A DNA stretch of 64,000 nucleotides, taken from contig NZ_BBJB01000115.1 of NCBI RefSeq assembly GCF_016584665.1, positions 1 through 64,000 of the forward strand, given 5' to 3'. The notes beneath the pieces were generated by a model. The model was not told the origin of the DNA, searched no databases, and was given only the letters and a program-made list of their open reading frames with translations. This DNA is from Pseudanabaena sp. lw0831 (GTDB taxonomy: Bacteria > Cyanobacteriota > Cyanobacteriia > Pseudanabaenales > Pseudanabaenaceae). This document shows positions 9,910-40,676 of the stretch, piece after piece (the stretch's first letter is position 1; every line of letters begins with the position of its first letter). Position numbers and translations under genes: made by a program.

Positions 9910-11722
9910 TCAAAATCCATTCGGTAACGCCATCGGCAAGGGTCTTAGCCAGTAACTTTTGTTGTTGCGGATCGATAATCCATTCAAACTCGACAGGATT
10001 AATCATAAAGCCTAATTCCAAAAGTACGGATGGAGCAACTGTGGGACGGGCGAGGGCAAGATTATTCCAATAAACTCCATAATCAGCACGATTCAGCTTT
10101 TTCACGACATAAGCATTAATAAACTTGGCAAAGTCTTGCGCCTGTGGATTGTACCAAAAGCTTCCCATCCCTGACGTATTAATCGCATCACCATTATCAG
10201 GCAAAGCGTTGTAATGGATGCTAATCGCTAGGGTTGGTTCTTCTTGATTAATTTTATCGACCCTTGGCTCCAAAAGAACATCAGCATCATCAGTACGGGT
10301 CATAATTACCTTCACACCGCGATTTTGTAGTTCAGTTTGGAATAGTTTTGATGTGATCAGTGTGACATCCTTTTCGGGGTAGCCTGTTGGACCTCGCGAT
10401 CCTAAATCTTGAGTGCTTCCATGACCTGCATCGACGAGAATTTTCACCCCTTGCAGTGGTTGCGAATTACTTGATGTATCGGTCGCAAGAATCGGTGGAT
10501 GTTTAAGGGACAAAATCAGATTTGAACCTTGGTATTGAACTTTATATCCCCATTGCTGCTTTGGCTTGAGACTAATCGTATAGGTCACCTTGCTAGGGTC
10601 GGTTTGTACCCATTCCAGCTTATTAATAATCGAGTCTGGATCGATTGAAATCGTATCAGTTTGAGCAGTCACATTATAGAGAGTGAAAGAAAATATGCGA
10701 TCGCCTTGGGTAATCGCTAGAGGCACTGGTGCTTCTAGGGGAATTGTCACCTCTGTCCACAGATTATTTTGATTGCCAACTCGCTTAGTATTAATGCTGC
10801 GGACAATTGAGGGCGGTGGTGGCTCTGCGGCTTCAAGCTTAGTCATACTCTTTCTCACCCAGCCGCCATAGTCAAGCCGTAACCAATCACCTTGCTTACC
10901 TGTAACTACAGCTTTGGTTCCTTTAGGCAAAGGCGTTAGCCTTGAGAAATCAGTACTTGCCCCTGTTCTCGCGTCAGCCGCAATCGCGGTTACTTCGGCA
11001 ACTTGGATATTAGTCTGGGAGAGAATCTCTAGGTTACCTTTGGCTTTTTGCTTGACAATGCGATCGCCCAAGCGCATTTCATATTCAGGATAACCCAATT
11101 GGCTTGGCTTCTCAAAAGTGGTACAGCCGCGAAAATATCCTGAAGGAGATTCGGCTGTAGCTTCATTGTTGCCTGTTAGTACAGAAGAATTTGGCGGTAA
11201 CTGGACATTGCGACGACGCGGTAAGAGGGGGATTTCGAGATCGCTGATTCTCACTAAAACTGTTGAATTGGGCGTAGCGATCGCATCGAAGCAGATTCTT
11301 TCATTGGGTTGTCGCGCAGTATCCACAGTTGGCAATAGTGATTCTTTGACAAATCCAATATCTTTTGGCGGCAATGTAATTCGTGAATCCCTTAAAACTT
11401 TGACATTAATCTGACGCTCACTACTGAGATCGCCTTTCCCGTTAACGTATTTGATTGCAAAATTATTTTCACCCAACTGAAGCGGCAAACTCGGTGCAAA
11501 ATGTCCAGCCTCACTTCGTGATATGGGTTTGCCATTAATACTGAAATTGCCATCTTTAGGCGCAGTCCCAATAAAAAATAGGCGATCGCTGGTGGTGATA
11601 TGTCGCAACGGTGGATAAGTAAGATGCAGTTGCGTAGGTGGTACAAAGTTCTGAGCACCTGCCGCGATCGCTAAGACAAAGCTCAACAGCCCAATTACAA
11701 AAATTCCGATCAGTCGCCGCAT
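9896..11722 (-). CDS. Periplasmic N-acetylmuramoyl-L-alanine amidase (Amidase_3)
   Basis: 608 residues. A signal peptide (FVIGLLSFVLAIAAGAQ) opens the protein; a beta-rich middle includes an SH3-like segment near 240-290 (AADARTGASTDFSRL ... GDWLRLDYGGWV). The C-terminal Amidase_3 domain holds the zinc ligands in ILVDAGHGS and in LAISIHYNA and the catalytic glutamate in SVLLELGFMIN. It cleaves the peptide from muramic acid in peptidoglycan, acting in cell separation and wall remodelling. Longer than AmiC because of the N-terminal modules. Confidence 0.92.
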   Translation of the reverse strand: MRRLIGIFVIGLLSFVLAIAAGAQNFVPPTQLHLTYPPLRHITTSDRLFFIGTAPKDGNFSINGKPISRSEAGHFAPSLPLQLGENNFAIKYVNGKGDLSSERQINVKVLRDSRITLPPKDIGFVKESLLPTVDTARQPNERICFDAIATPNSTVLVRISDLEIPLLPRRRNVQLPPNSSVLTGNNEATAESPSGYFRGCTTFEKPSQLGYPEYEMRLGDRIVKQKAKGNLEILSQTNIQVAEVTAIAADARTGASTDFSRLTPLPKGTKAVVTGKQGDWLRLDYGGWVRKSMTKLEAAEPPPPSIVRSINTKRVGNQNNLWTEVTIPLEAPVPLAITQGDRIFSFTLYNVTAQTDTISIDPDSIINKLEWVQTDPSKVTYTISLKPKQQWGYKVQYQGSNLILSLKHPPILATDTSSNSQPLQGVKILVDAGHGSTQDLGSRGPTGYPEKDVTLITSKLFQTELQNRGVKVIMTRTDDADVLLEPRVDKINQEEPTLAISIHYNALPDNGDAINTSGMGSFWYNPQAQDFAKFINAYVVKKLNRADYGVYWNNLALARPTVAPSVLLELGFMINPVEFEWIIDPQQQKLLAKTLADGVTEWILNAVK

Positions 11723-11817: not shown

Positions 11818-11911
11818 TTAAGTAGCTAGACGTAATTAAAAAACCAAAACCAAAATCTGTACCGCCCGCTACGCGGGCGGTACAGATTTTGGCATTTGCC
11901 TAGTTACTTAG
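11818..11911. repeat. MITE-like element, copy A (TIR AGTAGCTAG, core CCAAAATCTGTACCGCCCGC)
   Basis: Outer terminal repeats TTAAGTAGCTAGAC and GCCTAGTTACTTAG enclose a perfect 43-bp hairpin (11850-11892) with 20-bp arms and loop TAC. The same core and the same outer repeats recur at 31089-31184, and similar outer repeats at 37409-37489, so this is a small mobile-like family without coding capacity. Confidence 0.8.
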
Positions 11912-18988: not shown

Positions 18989-19451
18989 GAATCAATCCTC
19001 AGCATTATGTTCGGGCTTGCACCGTTAGGCGCGTTCTAAAATTCAGATCGCAACTTAGTTGGATACATTCATTTTGTTGTTGCAAACCATAGCTTAGCAA
19101 CAGCATAAATGTGATTTCAACAAATAGCGATTTTCATCAGCAAATCTTAAACCTATAGCAGTAAGCGTTCTATTCTAGACTCTTGTAAGCTTTAATGATT
19201 TCTTTGTATACAAAGTTTAAGCTAATCTTAACAAACAAAGCCTACAAAAGTAGAGTTGATACTTCACTTTTACTAATTCTAATTATAAAAGTCAGTTTTG
19301 TAGAAATGCTATCATCGCTAGCCTTTATTTCTAGCAGTTATCAAGCAAACGAACCACAATAAATTTTTGAAAGTGCAGCTAGGCATAACTTTCAAAAATT
19401 TATTGGTTCGAGTTTGAGCGCAAAGCGCTGTAAAACTAACTTTTATGATTT
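18989..19451. other. 463-bp non-coding stretch
   Basis: Upstream region of the giant acidic protein gene and downstream region of the aminotransferase gene. AT-rich, with no convincing ORF. Contains the inverted repeat at 19350-19410; nothing else recognised. Confidence 0.6.
19350..19410. repeat. Inverted repeat, AATAAATTTTTGAAAGT family, copy 1
   Basis: Arms CGAACCACAATAAATTTTTG... and ACTTTCAAAAATTTATTGGT... pair around a 13-nt loop containing CAGCTAGGCAT, with a two-base bulge in the left arm. The tail GTTTGAGCGCAAAGC after the right arm recurs after copy 2 (32114-32170). Confidence 0.85.
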
Positions 19452-20994: not shown

Positions 20995-21348
20995 ATGATC
21001 ACATTGACTGACGCAGCGATCGCTCGCGTAAGAAATCTTCAAAGCCAACGCGCCACTTCTGCGCCTTTGCGTTTAGGCATTAAGCAAGGTGGTTGCTCTG
21101 GTTTATCTTATTTGATGGACTTTGTTGACCAACTTGAATCTGACGACAATCAGTATGAATATAACGGTGTACAAATCGTTATTAACAATAGCAATTTACC
21201 TCAGTTACAAGGACTAGAACTCGACTACACCGAGGATCTTATGGGTGGTGGATTCCGTTTCCGTAATCCTAATGCCAGCAAGTCTTGTAGTTGCGGTACT
21301 TCTTTTGCCACTCCTAAAGAAATAGGTGCACCTGTAGCTTGTAGCTAA
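20995..21348 (+). CDS. sufA: Iron-sulfur cluster carrier IscA/SufA (HesB family)
   Basis: 117 residues. The three invariant cysteines of A-type carriers are present: GGCSGLSY and the C-terminal SCSCGTSF. A-type proteins hold Fe-S clusters or iron and pass them to apoproteins in the cytoplasm. Name sufA is chosen because cyanobacteria use SUF; iscA is equally possible. The stop codon overlaps the following hairpin by two bases. Confidence 0.93.
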   Translation: MITLTDAAIARVRNLQSQRATSAPLRLGIKQGGCSGLSYLMDFVDQLESDDNQYEYNGVQIVINNSNLPQLQGLELDYTEDLMGGGFRFRNPNASKSCSCGTSFATPKEIGAPVACS

Positions 21349-21393
21349 TCTCAAAAAAGAAGCCTCGCAGTGCGAGGCTTCTTTTTTGAGATT
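21347..21393 (+). terminator. Rho-independent-like hairpin after sufA
   Basis: 23-bp arms (AATCTCAAAAAAGAAGCCTC then GCA) with a single-base loop G; the right arm contains CTTTTTT. The left arm begins at the last two bases of the sufA stop codon. Confidence 0.9.
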
Positions 21394-21397
21394 TGTA

Positions 21398-21438
21398 TTG
21401 CAATAATAGGCGGCGCTTTGCGCCGCCTATTATTGCAA
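21398..21438. repeat. 41-bp perfect hairpin, CGGCGC-TTT-GCGCCG apex
   Basis: 19-bp arms (TTGCAATAATAGGCGGCGC) around TTT, four bases after the previous hairpin and four bases before the end of the GFA gene. The two hairpins side by side serve the two convergent genes. Confidence 0.93.
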
Positions 21439-30694: not shown

Positions 30695-30726
30695 AACAAA
30701 AAGGGATGCAAAGCATCCCTTTTTGT
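30694..30726. terminator. Bidirectional terminator-like hairpin
   Basis: 15-bp perfect arms AACAAAAAGGGATGC around AAA with A and T tracts on both sides. It lies between convergent genes and starts at the last stop base of the upstream one. Confidence 0.88.
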
Positions 30727-30731
30727 TGGGA

Positions 30732-31088: not shown

Positions 31089-31184
31089 TATGTAGCTAGG
31101 CGCAAATCCCAAAATCTGTACCGCCCGCGCAGCGGGCGGTACAGATTTTGGATCTGGGTTTTTAATTGGGCCTAGCTACTTAAT
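31089..31184. repeat. MITE-like element, copy B (TIR GTAGCTAGGC)
   Basis: Outer ATGTAGCTAGGCGCAAATCC and GGCCTAGCTACTTAAT enclose a perfect 43-bp hairpin (31109-31151), whose 20-bp arms are identical to those of copy A (11850-11892), with loop GCA in place of TAC. Confidence 0.82.
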
Positions 31185-31786: not shown

Positions 31787-31924
31787 ATGCCACTTAGTCT
31801 ATTGATTGCAACTTTACCTGAAGCGTATAGAATTTTCGATCCACTGGTAAACGTTCTTCCCGTGATTCCTGTATTTTTCTTGCTACTCGCTTTTGTGTGG
31901 CAAGCTTCAGTCGGTTTCAAATAG
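31787..31924 (+). CDS. psbK: Photosystem II reaction-centre protein PsbK
   Basis: 45 codons plus TAG. The mature part reads [20 protein letters not shown] followed by a single membrane helix and [11 protein letters not shown], matching PsbK; the first eight residues (MPLSLLIA) are the short leader removed after insertion. A perfect AAGGAGG site lies twelve bases upstream. PsbK is a one-helix thylakoid subunit next to CP43 that stabilises the PSII core and plastoquinone site. Followed by a terminator hairpin, so it is probably monocistronic. Confidence 0.96.
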
Positions 31925-32022
31925 GTTTCAATTTAAGTCTTGACTTAATAAAAAAACTTATAAAAAACTTTTAAGTACATCTTGTACATTCACACTGACT
32001 CATTTATAAAACAAAAACGATA

Positions 32023-32063
32023 TAAGCGATCGGGGTAGCGGCAACGTTACCCCGATTGCTTTC
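32023..32063 (+). terminator. Hairpin downstream of psbK
   Basis: AAGCGATCGGGGTA pairs with TTACCCCGATTGCTTT (one mismatch) around GCGGCAACG. Located about 100 bases after psbK. Confidence 0.75.
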
Positions 32064-32064
32064 T

Positions 32065-32093
32065 AAGTGTGTGTCGCAAAGCGCCACATACTT
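32065..32093. repeat. Degenerate hairpin, CGC-AAA-GCG apex
   Basis: AAGTGTGTGTCGC and GCGCCACATACTT pair with two mismatches around AAA. A decayed member of the GCGC-NNN-GCGC group. Confidence 0.7.
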
Positions 32094-32113
32094 ACAGTAT
32101 TTTTCAATCAAAA

Positions 32114-32170
32114 GAACCAATAAATTTTTGAAAGTGTTGCAAAGCAAAACTTTCAAAAATTTATTGGTTC
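32114..32170. repeat. Inverted repeat, AATAAATTTTTGAAAGT family, copy 2
   Basis: 22-bp perfect arms (GAACCAATAAATTTTTGAAA then GT) around GTTGCAAAGCAAA. The tail GGCTTGAGCGCAAAGC mirrors the tail of copy 1 at 19350-19410. Confidence 0.9.
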
Positions 32171-32222
32171 GGGCTTGAGCGCAAAGCTTTGTAAGTGCTA
32201 AAAATATTATTTTTAATAAAAT

Positions 32223-32462
32223 ATGGAAATCATCGGACGTTGGACGAACAAATTTTTGATGTTCAATTTGTTCTTAGTATTTTTCTTCTTTGCATGGCTA
32301 CTAGTTGCTCTCGGCGGCGAAACCCTAAAAATAAATCTTGGCTTGGAGTTATGGCGACAACTATGGGAGCCATTGATTCAACCTGTGCTAGGAATTGTCA
32401 TGGCTGGTGCGATCGCGAGTGGCATAATCTCCAAAGTTAAACAAAAACTAGCTAAACCTTAA
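32223..32462 (+). CDS. Small conserved membrane protein, unknown function
   Basis: 79 residues with two hydrophobic segments (LMFNLFLVFFFFAWLLVAL and PVLGIVMAGAIASGIIS) and a basic C-terminus (KVKQKLAKP), so probably inner or thylakoid membrane. A candidate in another frame (32195) lacks these features. No family name recalled. Confidence 0.75.
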   Translation: MEIIGRWTNKFLMFNLFLVFFFFAWLLVALGGETLKINLGLELWRQLWEPLIQPVLGIVMAGAIASGIISKVKQKLAKP

Positions 32463-32474
32463 CGACCAAGAAGG

Positions 32475-32527
32475 CGCTTTACTATCAATGGTTAGGTATG
32501 TCTTACCCAGCCATTGATAGTAAAGCG
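32475..32527. repeat. Inverted repeat with one arm in the 2OG-oxygenase coding end
   Basis: 17-bp perfect arms CGCTTTACTATCAATGG (32475-32491) and its reverse complement (32511-32527), loop 19 nt. The right arm encodes R339-F-T-I-N-G344, part of the conserved RFTINGW motif of the oxygenase; the left arm is non-coding and directly follows the stop codon. Confidence 0.95.
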
Positions 32528-33541
32528 GCTATCAGCAAAATATTCTGATGGACAACTGACAGGCAAAACTTCATGCATACAGTGACTAGGAAAAAAGATG
32601 ATTGTATTATTCGTGGGCTGAATCACTTTGCGGGAGTCTGCAGCAACAGAATAGCCATTTTCGATTTTACTGTCATAGATTACTAACTCGCCACCAGTGA
32701 AGGGTTTAGGTTCGCGATAGTAGTAGTAAACATAGGTAAGAACTCTTGTCGCACTGTCTGGACTACCACTGTCATTATGGATTTTGTAATAATTGCCGTG
32801 ATTATGGGCGGTCATTTGCGACTCAATTTGCCCGATCTCAAAGTTGTTTATAGCTAAGTGGGTGATAATTTGCGGTGTAATTTTTCGTATTAGCTTAACC
32901 ATTAACTCTGAGAACTCAGGGAAGTGCATAAGATAAAATGAGCGCCGATAGTTGGGATCAGCGGCTGAGTTGGTGGTAGGAATAAATTCAGGTTGTTTAC
33001 TGATGCTATAGCGTAATAAATCGTTTAGTTGACTTGGTGACAAAAAATCATCAATTAGCGCATAGGGAGATGGGATAACATCTTCATCTGGTGGAATCTT
33101 TAAGAGGATTGACTCGCTAGTTGTGGATGGTTTGGGATCTTGAATTACTGGAAGATATGCTGGTATTTGAGCAGAATTATTATTAGTATTTAACAATACA
33201 TCTAGCTTTTTTCTAATAGCCCAAAAGCCTTTCCCAAATTGACGATCAACTAAAATACATTCAAAGTTTCGCCAAGAAAATCTATAGTCTTGAATTTGAG
33301 ATGCTACTTTTTTATTCAGTCTTTCAACGAAGCTATCATCAAGACTTAGTAAAATCCTAATTTCATCGGTTGAAATCCAAAAATCCGAATCAGCAATATG
33401 TTTTACATTGTCAAGCTGCTGAATTAATTGCTCGACTTGATAATTAGTGTCTTCAGAAATTGGTTTGGATTTCAGATGCTGAGCTTTCATAAATTTAATA
33501 GCTACTTTTTTAAGATTTGAGCCATCCAAAATATGGCTCAA
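32492..33541 (-). CDS. 2OG-Fe(II) oxygenase (prolyl-4-hydroxylase-like)
   Basis: 349 residues. The C-terminal 200 residues form the dioxygenase: iron ligands H-x-D in YYKIHNDSGS, distal His in FFPSHCMHEVLPV, and the 2-oxoglutarate-binding Arg in DSRFTINGWV. It hydroxylates an unknown protein or small molecule. Residues 1-150 carry a separate region (EQLIQQLDNVKHIADSDFW, LVDRQFGKGFWAIRK) of unknown use. The gene end is unusual because its last codons are duplicated in inverted form beyond the stop. Confidence 0.88.
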   Translation of the reverse strand: MSHILDGSNLKKVAIKFMKAQHLKSKPISEDTNYQVEQLIQQLDNVKHIADSDFWISTDEIRILLSLDDSFVERLNKKVASQIQDYRFSWRNFECILVDRQFGKGFWAIRKKLDVLLNTNNNSAQIPAYLPVIQDPKPSTTSESILLKIPPDEDVIPSPYALIDDFLSPSQLNDLLRYSISKQPEFIPTTNSAADPNYRRSFYLMHFPEFSELMVKLIRKITPQIITHLAINNFEIGQIESQMTAHNHGNYYKIHNDSGSPDSATRVLTYVYYYYREPKPFTGGELVIYDSKIENGYSVAADSRKVIQPTNNTIIFFPSHCMHEVLPVSCPSEYFADSRFTINGWVRHT

Positions 33542-33547
33542 ACAACT

Positions 33548-34558
33548 TTAGTTAAACCAGCTTGGCATTAATAAAATCGGTGGATCGTAATTGCCTGCTT
33601 GCATATTGTGACCAGTTAGTTTTGAGGTTAGCTGATCAGCGATCGCCCCAGAAATATTTCCTGTACCAGCAATATCAAAAAATGGCAAGGCAATACTAAC
33701 ACTAGTTTGACTGAGTAATTGATCTAAAAGTCTTTCAAAGGAAGCTGGAGATTTACGAATTGGTAATTCGCTTTGCTCAGACAACTTAAATTTTTTTCTG
33801 GATAAATCACGTAAATCTACGATCGCTGCATCCAAAGTTCCTAAAGCATCAACCAGTTTATTCTCCTTAGCTTGTTGTCCTGTATAAATCCGTCCGTCCG
33901 CAAGCTTGCGCACCACTTCTAAATCTAGTTTGCGCCCCTTAGATACATCGGTAATAAATTCTTGATAGGTACTTTGCAAAAGTTCTTGCAGTAATGCACG
34001 CTCTGGATCACCTAGCTCTCGAAATGGCGAAAAAATATCTTTGTAGGGGCCAGTTTTGATCGTTTGCGATTGGATACCCACCCGATCTAGTAATTCTTTG
34101 GCATTAAAGCCACTCAAAATTACGCCGATACTACCTGTCAATGTGCCAGCATTGGCATAAATTTTAGTTGCTGAACTTGCTGCATAGTAACCACCACTGG
34201 TTGCCTGATCGAGCATACTAACCACAACGGGCTTTTTCGCGCTCAAGTCCTTAACTGCATCGTAGAGTTCTTTGCTTGCGCCAACGGTTCCTCCAGGACT
34301 ATTAATTGATAGCAATACTCCCTTTACGGAGTCTTCCTCGATCAGTTCGCGGAGGCGATCGCGTACTGCCATTGCTCCTGATGCTGAAGCCCTTGCTCCT
34401 GTAATTGCACCATCCAAGGAAACTAGTTCAAGGCGATCGCGATCGAGTACTTTCTTTAAATTTAAAGCCTCATCCATTTGGCGGCGCTGAATACCAAATG
34501 TGGCTGAGATAAAGCAAACGGCGACTAAAACGAGAGCAATGATGCGATTGAGTTGCAT
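33548..34558 (-). CDS. sppA: Signal peptide peptidase SppA, S49 (36-kDa type)
   Basis: 336 residues from ATG 34558; the ATG at 34615 was rejected because it starts in a hairpin arm. An N-terminal membrane anchor (IIALVLVAVCFISATF) precedes one S49 domain. The nucleophile is the Ser in LDQATSGGYYAAS and the general-base Lys is in KTGPYKDIFSPFRE; SPGGTVGAS is also typical. It degrades cleaved signal peptides in the membrane and is linked to phycobilisome change under light stress in cyanobacteria. Six bases separate it from the downstream oxygenase, so they share a transcript. Confidence 0.93.
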   Translation of the reverse strand: MQLNRIIALVLVAVCFISATFGIQRRQMDEALNLKKVLDRDRLELVSLDGAITGARASASGAMAVRDRLRELIEEDSVKGVLLSINSPGGTVGASKELYDAVKDLSAKKPVVVSMLDQATSGGYYAASSATKIYANAGTLTGSIGVILSGFNAKELLDRVGIQSQTIKTGPYKDIFSPFRELGDPERALLQELLQSTYQEFITDVSKGRKLDLEVVRKLADGRIYTGQQAKENKLVDALGTLDAAIVDLRDLSRKKFKLSEQSELPIRKSPASFERLLDQLLSQTSVSIALPFFDIAGTGNISGAIADQLTSKLTGHNMQAGNYDPPILLMPSWFN

Positions 34559-35395: not shown

Positions 35396-35450
35396 AAACC
35401 CCAAAGAGTGAGATGCGGCGCGAAGCGCCGCATCTCACTCTTTGGGGTTT
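35396..35450. repeat. 55-bp perfect hairpin, GCGGCGC-GAA-GCGCCGC apex
   Basis: 26-bp arms (AAACCCCAAAGAGTGAGATG then CGGCGC) around GAA, ten bases after the chlM stop. Confidence 0.95.
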
Positions 35451-39268: not shown

Positions 39269-40489
39269 TTATGCCCATAGAATCCCAAACCGCTTGGCTT
39301 TGCGCTTCACTTCCGAATAGGGAATATCCACGCTCTTGGCTTGATTAAATATGCACAATCCTAACTTTGTAGCGATCATTGCCCGCAGCAAATGAAAGGG
39401 ATTTTCATAGAGCAACTTTTCACTCATCCATGAAACTGCATCTGCCTCAAGCTTCCATTTATTGTTGTACAGCTTGGCAGCTTTGAGAAGTTGACTTGGC
39501 AAAGTACCTATCTCCCCAATGCAGAGATCTAGTACCATAGACGATTCCATAGCCGCGTTGACACCCTGACCGATTGGTGGAAACGCTGCGGCTGCATCTC
39601 CGAGTAATACTGCCTTCCCACCATAAAGTTGCGAGCAAGTCAGAGTTTGCCCAATGTGGTAGCAAGTACGTTTAGCATATGCCGAGATCTTCTCTTCACT
39701 TGCTAGTTCAAGTATCTTTGGTACACGCTTTCTTAAAAACAGGTAAGCTTCTTCGGTGGTCGAGAATACTTGCTTCGTCTTTGTGCCGATCGCACAAAAC
39801 CATCGCGGTATATCTAAACCATGCTCTCCTGCGATCGCACCTGCAATGCAGAATGGCGTAATAGCTAGACCATAAAGGTAGTGTTTATCTAACTTGTCTC
39901 CCACAAGATCGAGTTCAATCATAGTCGAGTAATTTTGCAGTGACTTACTTTGGACAGTAAATTCTGGGATCTGCTCAACCATCGCTTTACGAATGATAGA
40001 ACCTGCTCCATCTGCCCCAATGATGAAATCGAATTGTTGCACGTTCATGCCGCCGATCTGGAATTCATAGGTTAGGATTCCTGTGTGGACATCCACTGAG
40101 TGAACGCGGCATTCAAAGTGTAAATCTATCCATTCTGAGTACTTGGCTTCTATCGTCGCCATCAGCGATCGCAGGATATCTCCTCTCGAACCAGTCCAGC
40201 CCGATTCCTCAGTTTCTCCATAGCGAAATTTGAGACCTTTAAATTGAAACATCCTTGCATCAAAGTAATTGCAAGCATCGATGTAGCGCAAGGCTTTGAG
40301 TCCATGACCCGATATATCGATCGCGTAAGACCTTTCTGGATTAAATCGTAAGGATAATTCTGGATGAGCATCACGCTCAAATACTTGCGTCCTTATTCCC
40401 CTTCTAGCTAGAGCGATCGCCGCAACTAAGGCCGCAGGACCACCACCGACTATCGCAATGTTTACATCACTGAATATTTTGCTTGTCAA
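39269..40489 (-). CDS. FAD-dependent monooxygenase (PHBH/kynurenine monooxygenase-like)
   Basis: 406 residues. The FAD dinucleotide motif VNIAIVGGGPAALVAAIALA is at the N-terminus, the second FAD motif is in VLLGDAAAAFPPIGQGVNAA and the NAD(P)H-linked DG motif is FIIGADGAGSIIRK. The layout fits group A flavoprotein hydroxylases. Substrate unknown; kynurenine or aromatic acid hydroxylases have a similar length. Converges on ilvA. Confidence 0.85.
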   Translation of the reverse strand: MTSKIFSDVNIAIVGGGPAALVAAIALARRGIRTQVFERDAHPELSLRFNPERSYAIDISGHGLKALRYIDACNYFDARMFQFKGLKFRYGETEESGWTGSRGDILRSLMATIEAKYSEWIDLHFECRVHSVDVHTGILTYEFQIGGMNVQQFDFIIGADGAGSIIRKAMVEQIPEFTVQSKSLQNYSTMIELDLVGDKLDKHYLYGLAITPFCIAGAIAGEHGLDIPRWFCAIGTKTKQVFSTTEEAYLFLRKRVPKILELASEEKISAYAKRTCYHIGQTLTCSQLYGGKAVLLGDAAAAFPPIGQGVNAAMESSMVLDLCIGEIGTLPSQLLKAAKLYNNKWKLEADAVSWMSEKLLYENPFHLLRAMIATKLGLCIFNQAKSVDIPYSEVKRKAKRFGILWA

Positions 40490-40501
40490 TATGTTCTAGA
40501 A

Positions 40502-40676
40502 CTAAATTTTTATTTGATTCAGAATAAATCTAGCATCAATTTCGCGTCTGGATTTGAGCTTTGAACTTTCGGGCAAGTGGCCTTTACCATTGAGCGCACT
40601 CATATTTTGGGCAGGATAGAGATCGCCGCAGGCAATGCCTTGAGATGCTCCTGCATTAATGCGATTGATGTAGATG
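40502..40676 (-). pseudogene. Possible coding remnant, unrecognised
   Basis: Reading left from 40676, 58 residues are open to TAG (40502-40504) with protein-like composition, e.g. RINAGASQGIACGDLYPAQN and LKSRREIDARFILNQIK. There is no start codon at the 5' end: the frame is closed by TAA from the hairpin at 40681. It looks like the 3' end of a gene cut by that hairpin, but the family is not recognised and it may be chance. Confidence 0.3.

Follow-up and report, generated by a model that had tools for sequence, protein, structure and literature searches.

A 3' hairpin of a Pseudanabaena oxygenase gene whose outer arm was probably copied from the end of the gene by a template switch

Hairpins at the 3' ends of genes need perfect pairing, and point mutations build them slowly. 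Bidirectional intrinsic terminators occur between convergent genes, and the template-switch mechanism has been argued mostly from human, yeast and reporter data. Switches that create hairpins have been described in microRNA and rRNA genes (Monttinen and Loytynoja, 2022; PMC8794818), correction of a pre-existing quasipalindrome was reported by Klaric et al. (2020; PMC7202029), and homogenisation of arms together with inversion of spacers was found in inverted repeats of yeast genes (Abraham and Hazkani-Covo, 2021; PMC8604942). Here we describe a hairpin at the end of a 2OG-Fe(II) oxygenase gene of Pseudanabaena sp. lw0831, which was very probably produced by one short template-switch mutation, from the coding arm into the gap, on the branch to this genome. 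As in the microRNA and rRNA genes (PMC8794818), a single event would have laid down a nearby reverse-complement copy and left a perfect stem, with loop inversion as a companion trace; unlike the cases in the part of that paper used here, the copy would have been taken from the end of a bacterial protein gene and written into the gap past its stop, over an older hairpin. Like the corrected quasipalindrome (PMC7202029), an imperfect inverted repeat would have become more perfect by arm copying, although, compared with the excerpt of that work we rely on, the inner stem was very weak at the start and the stem is mostly new. As in yeast (PMC8604942), switching would explain clustered changes in an inverted repeat, and spacers flip, but the yeast examples in the portion considered lie in coding DNA whereas here the copying would run from coding into non-coding DNA. 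In our search of the open-licence PMC literature, we met no report in which template switching from a gene end had given rise to a bacterial 3' hairpin. The class of mutation is already known from the sections of PMC8794818 and PMC7202029 used here, and this locus adds a clean, polarised bacterial case. The site also resembles a bidirectional terminator in its short gap, in its facing stops and in the A- and T-rich outer arms of the hairpins of its relatives, but the new hairpin differs in having a coding arm, a 19-nt loop that holds the stop, and a T-run on neither side.

The features of the hairpin in the window, i.e., the whole 64,000-nt stretch of DNA that was analysed, are collected in Table 1. 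The oxygenase protein matches Pfam family PF13640 (E 2.8e-18), its closest named orthologs are from Pseudanabaena, and its mechanical ORF extends to 33541. It ends in RFTINGWVRHT, followed by the stop; RFTING presumably contains the 2-oxoglutarate-binding arginine of the oxygenase. The facing stops of the oxygenase gene and the convergent small gene lie 29 nt apart. All 17 nt of arm 32475-32491 pair without mismatch with arm 32511-32527, and the hairpin extends imperfectly to arms of 27 nt (89%) with a loop of 5 nt. The minus-strand sequence of the coding arm (32527-32511) is CGC TTT ACT ATC AAT GG, and its inverted form, CCATTGATAGTAAAGCG, occupies 32491-32475, beginning at the base that adjoins the TAA stop (32494-32492). 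The preliminary description, which had reported a perfect inverted copy of the RFTING codons at the base after the stop, was thus confirmed over all 17 nt.

Table 1. Features of the oxygenase gene end, its hairpin and the adjoining gap.
Feature	Coordinates	Strand	Remarks
2OG-Fe(II) oxygenase gene	32492..33490	-	PF13640; 332 aa from the start common to orthologs
Convergent small-protein gene	32224..32462	+	Ends ...AIASGIISKVKQKLAKP; stop near hairpin
Coding arm (putative source)	32511..32527	-	CGCTTTACTATCAATGG; RFTIN codons and first two bases of G
Spacer, 19 nt	32492..32510	-	Final codons and stop; weak inner stem GGTA/TACC
Outer non-coding arm (putative copy)	32475..32491	-	First base directly after stop
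Twelve newly written bases	32478..32489	-	ATTGATAGTAAA on gene strand; relative to G008 and G019 flanks
Surviving far half of older GGCGC...GCGCC hairpin	32468..32477	-	GCGCCTTCTT on gene strand

Perfect inverted repeats of at least 17 nt with loops of up to 60 numbered 24 in the window, against none in 60 sequences, each of 64 kb, simulated with a third-order Markov model; hairpins are therefore real here as a class. A random 12-mer at the site would have a perfectly matching inverted partner no more than 100 nt away with a probability of ~1.3e-5 (27/2,000,000), a value that holds for this one gap alone and not for all gaps open to inspection. RNA folding of 32440-32560 gave z = -5.5. The arm sequence is unique to the hairpin: exactly two copies occur in the 5.26-Mb genome, both being its own arms, and no further copy was found there at up to one mismatch. 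Exact copies were likewise absent elsewhere among the 26 same-genus genomes searched, and matches with one mismatch occurred in G008 and G003, on other contigs. An origin of the outer arm from a mobile or dispersed hairpin, like others in the window, would be in keeping with a genome that holds families with 93 and 16 arm matches; we consider it the least probable of the explanations weighed here, since the arm matches its own partner only, that partner lies within a conserved run of codons, and two arms are not the many copies that such an origin would predict.

The gene was sought in related strains, and matches were obtained in 18 of the 26 same-genus genomes. Seventeen genomes, the window genome among them, yielded a readable syntenic gene end; G011, which has only a fragment with stops, was left out. 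In G003 (L028, L075; G003:C19), the oxygenase appears to be split, with residues 4-199 and 303-331 matched in separate pieces. All 17 Pseudanabaena loci end in RFTINGW and share the same convergent neighbour end, in agreement with the conservation of RFTING proposed at the outset. We then compared gene ends, taken from 15 nt ahead of RFTING as far as the stop, with the next 80 nt; two unreadable loci were omitted, as were L031-L038 because their genomes were already counted. In the window, perfect pairing reached 17 nt; its maximum was 4-6 nt across the 16 other Pseudanabaena loci and no more than 7 nt across 41 further loci from cyanobacteria. A coding arm that had diverged while the outer arm changed to match it, named in the preliminary description as the pattern that would speak against copying, was seen in none of these 16 and 41 loci, and comparison of the 3' flanks, which it had also proposed, showed long pairing with the gene end in the window genome only.

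An alternative would be an old structure under selection, for example a conserved terminator or RNA element, in which compensating changes in the two arms have preserved the pairing. The gap alone folds at -6 kcal/mol or below in 14 of 16 relatives, the exceptions being G008 (-3.3) and G010 (-4.0), as such a structure might lead one to expect. However, the hairpins of the relatives lie within the gap and have different stems, pairing between coding end and flank occurs in no ortholog, and Rfam gave no match in 31900-33600; we therefore regard an old selected structure as very unlikely. In the window, the gap folds at -2.5 alone and at -34.4 together with the coding end.

The direction of copying was judged from the four nearest relatives. 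Identity in the coding arm was 0.82 in each of G008, G019, G017 and G010, while that in the non-coding arm was 0.35, 0.41, 0.41 and 0.47, respectively; in 4/4 relatives, the source was kept and the target changed (82% vs 35-47%), as the preliminary description had proposed in deriving the outer arm from the coding arm. In a tree of 16 genomes built from the 900 nt of the oxygenase gene before the arm, the window genome falls just outside G008, G019, G017 and G010 (support 97.9/99), which places the change on its own branch; G003 was left out, its crude reading frame having 18 stops that distorted the topology. The reverse or a two-way process, in which the outer arm was written into the gene end, draws on three positions of the 17-nt coding arm that differ from all four nearest relatives: third positions diverge at 39-44/300 codons from G008 and G019, so that three differences in five codons are somewhat high. 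Such copying is nevertheless extremely improbable, as the non-coding strand would need to have held RFTING by chance and the coding changes are synonymous in 3/3 cases. Given these three differences, a later exchange between the arms is conceivable. The comparison supports the coding arm as the probable older member and the outer arm as its copy.

The outgroups G022 and G016 carry clear GGCGC-loop-GCGCC hairpins in the same gap; the hairpin is also present in G019 and has decayed in G008 and G010. It follows that the older hairpin is ancestral and that its near half was replaced in the window genome. The gene strand of G019 reads TAG CC AAGAAGGCGC TTT GCACCTTCTT aagcg and that of the window TAA CC ATTGATAGTAAA GCGCCTTCTT ggtcg, and the surviving far half matches G019 with one mismatch, G022 and G016 less closely. 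Because the outer CC (32491-32490) and the far-end GCG (32477-32475) are also found in the flanks of relatives, the newly written stretch amounts to 12 bases, 32489-32478. A single reverse-complement copy accounts for this cluster of changes, i.e., 12 new bases within a 17-nt inverted copy 19 nt away. The outer arm was thus rightly described as a copy with regard to source and direction, but the new sequence is limited to 12 of the 17 bases, and half of an older hairpin was overwritten. The sequence comes from one assembly of 118 contigs, and a false fold-back from a chimera of assembly or amplification might be suspected; this too is unlikely, as the expected conserved genes continue on both sides, 12 bases were exchanged with no onward reversal of sequence, and the retained half hairpin agrees with the relatives.

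The one-sided novelty, the unique arms and the surviving half hairpin are direct observations, from which we infer the polymerase event and the strand used. In a template switch, the growing strand would leave its template at the gap during replication, take the reverse complement of 12-17 bases from the end of the gene nearby and rejoin where a few bases match within the older hairpin of the gap. The 12 new bases are bordered by matches of two and three bases, CC and GCG. By one route, the gene-sense strand would fold back: RFTING would be made first, so that the coding arm precedes the outer arm as the preliminary description had proposed, the CC after the stop would pair with GG, and the strand would copy itself and rejoin at GCG. 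By the other, with the other strand growing, the switch would occur between strands; the sequence is compatible with either route. The inner stem GGTA/TACC is a possible primer for the fold-back, although it is weak (DNA fold -1.9 kcal/mol in the window, -0.8 in G008 and G019). A copy of the coding end would have taken the place of the near half of the GGCGC...GCGCC hairpin, so that a single event removed one hairpin and made another; a one-step origin of the perfect stem is plausible. When the window supplied the source, a switch model lowered the edit count from 29 to 18 against both G019 and G008, yet other tiles gained up to 48 because ordinary hairpins score too; when the relative supplied it, the gain was 9 for G019 and 5 for G010, with no gain for G008 and G017. 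Since the gain score could not tell the focal hairpin from ordinary ones, we relied on the contrast in conservation between the two arms.

Other hairpins of these genomes were also compared. The 124 kb of the window genome surveyed contain 75 inverted repeats of at least 13 nt, which crude ORF calls assigned as 67 intergenic, 4 intragenic, 3 at starts and 1 at a stop, the last being the focal hairpin. By similar calls, 5 of 296 repeats in five genomes straddle a stop, the focal one included. Neither of two such repeats served as a parallel case: that of G008 belongs to a repeated element of unclear gene status, and that of G017 lies on a C-terminal tail missing from the orthologs and is therefore uninformative. 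The preliminary proposal that the coding arm comes first in the other hairpins as well was not supported, as 67/75 are wholly intergenic and some belong to dispersed families. Arms could be judged for 23 of 78 repeats against G008, 12 against G017, 10 against G010 and 22 against G019; in the window, the focal hairpin alone was strongly asymmetric against all four, and repeat 21347 was so against G019 only. This latter hairpin (21347-21393) begins within a stop codon. Together with G008 132095 it represents one gene-end hairpin with different outer arms, which change together (AATCTC/GAGATT in the window genome, G000, vs AATACC/GGTATT in G008); its right extension is missing in G019. In G008, an asymmetric repeat at 113838 adjoins a length difference relative to G000. 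A 23-nt perfect inverted repeat in a coding region of G019 (11042-11102; L079, G019:C98) has one arm that is new compared with G000 and G008, with several residues changed, and on this comparison is a probable second template-switch event.

Loops of hairpins kept in both G000 and G008 were exactly inverted in 4/9 cases and the same in 1/9. With the stem largely kept, the loop was reverse-complementary to that of a relative at 21398-21438 (ttt/aaa), 30695-30727 (aaa/ttt) and 35396-35450 (gaa/ttc). Exactly inverted loops are another recorded trace of template switching, according to the part of the yeast study used here (PMC8604942). Dispersed hairpins were also observed. A perfect one with arm CCAAAATCTGTACCGCCCGC lies at 11850-11892 and 31109-31151 in the window, its arm having 93 matches with up to one mismatch in the genome; in several copies, the two arms share a variant, a pattern that suggests arm correction or the spread of variant copies. 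The second family, AATAAATTTTTGAAAGT, is found at 19357-19405 and 32114-32170, with 16 arm matches in the genome, and one copy sits ~300 bases from the focal hairpin, past the small convergent gene. A multi-copy hairpin, AGATCTCCGACTTTTT (L076-L099), occurs in G008 (G008:C60, ~40476-40540), where it is repeated nearby, and on a G019 contig; no match to it was found in the compared stretches of G000, G017 and G010.

Any effect of the new hairpin on transcription is likewise something we infer. The sequence has no T-run after either arm, unlike an intrinsic terminator, in which one follows a GC-rich stem, and a scan of 32000-33600 gave no terminator-like site at the hairpin on either strand, by criteria (loop 3-8 and a T-run) that exclude a 19-nt loop. 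Considering that a hairpin is usual at this site and that its loss is apparently tolerated in G008 and G010, selection for the new hairpin is less supported. In E. coli, ribosomes repress terminators near or overlapping a gene end, as stated in the part of the source consulted (PMC4824070); the new hairpin may therefore work poorly as a terminator if the oxygenase gene is well translated.

The value of the locus is that the direction of change is set by a protein-coding source and the ancestral state is seen in several close relatives; the hairpin also suggests a way to test terminator turnover among related strains. A broader idea, which we hold to be doubtful, is that template switching is a routine source of new 3' stem-loops in these cyanobacteria, a copy of adjacent sequence, at this locus a gene end, overwriting a decaying terminator hairpin in one step. 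If true, an arm within the last codons would fold only once the ribosome has left, and the 3' structure of the RNA, and perhaps termination, would be coupled to translation of the oxygenase gene.
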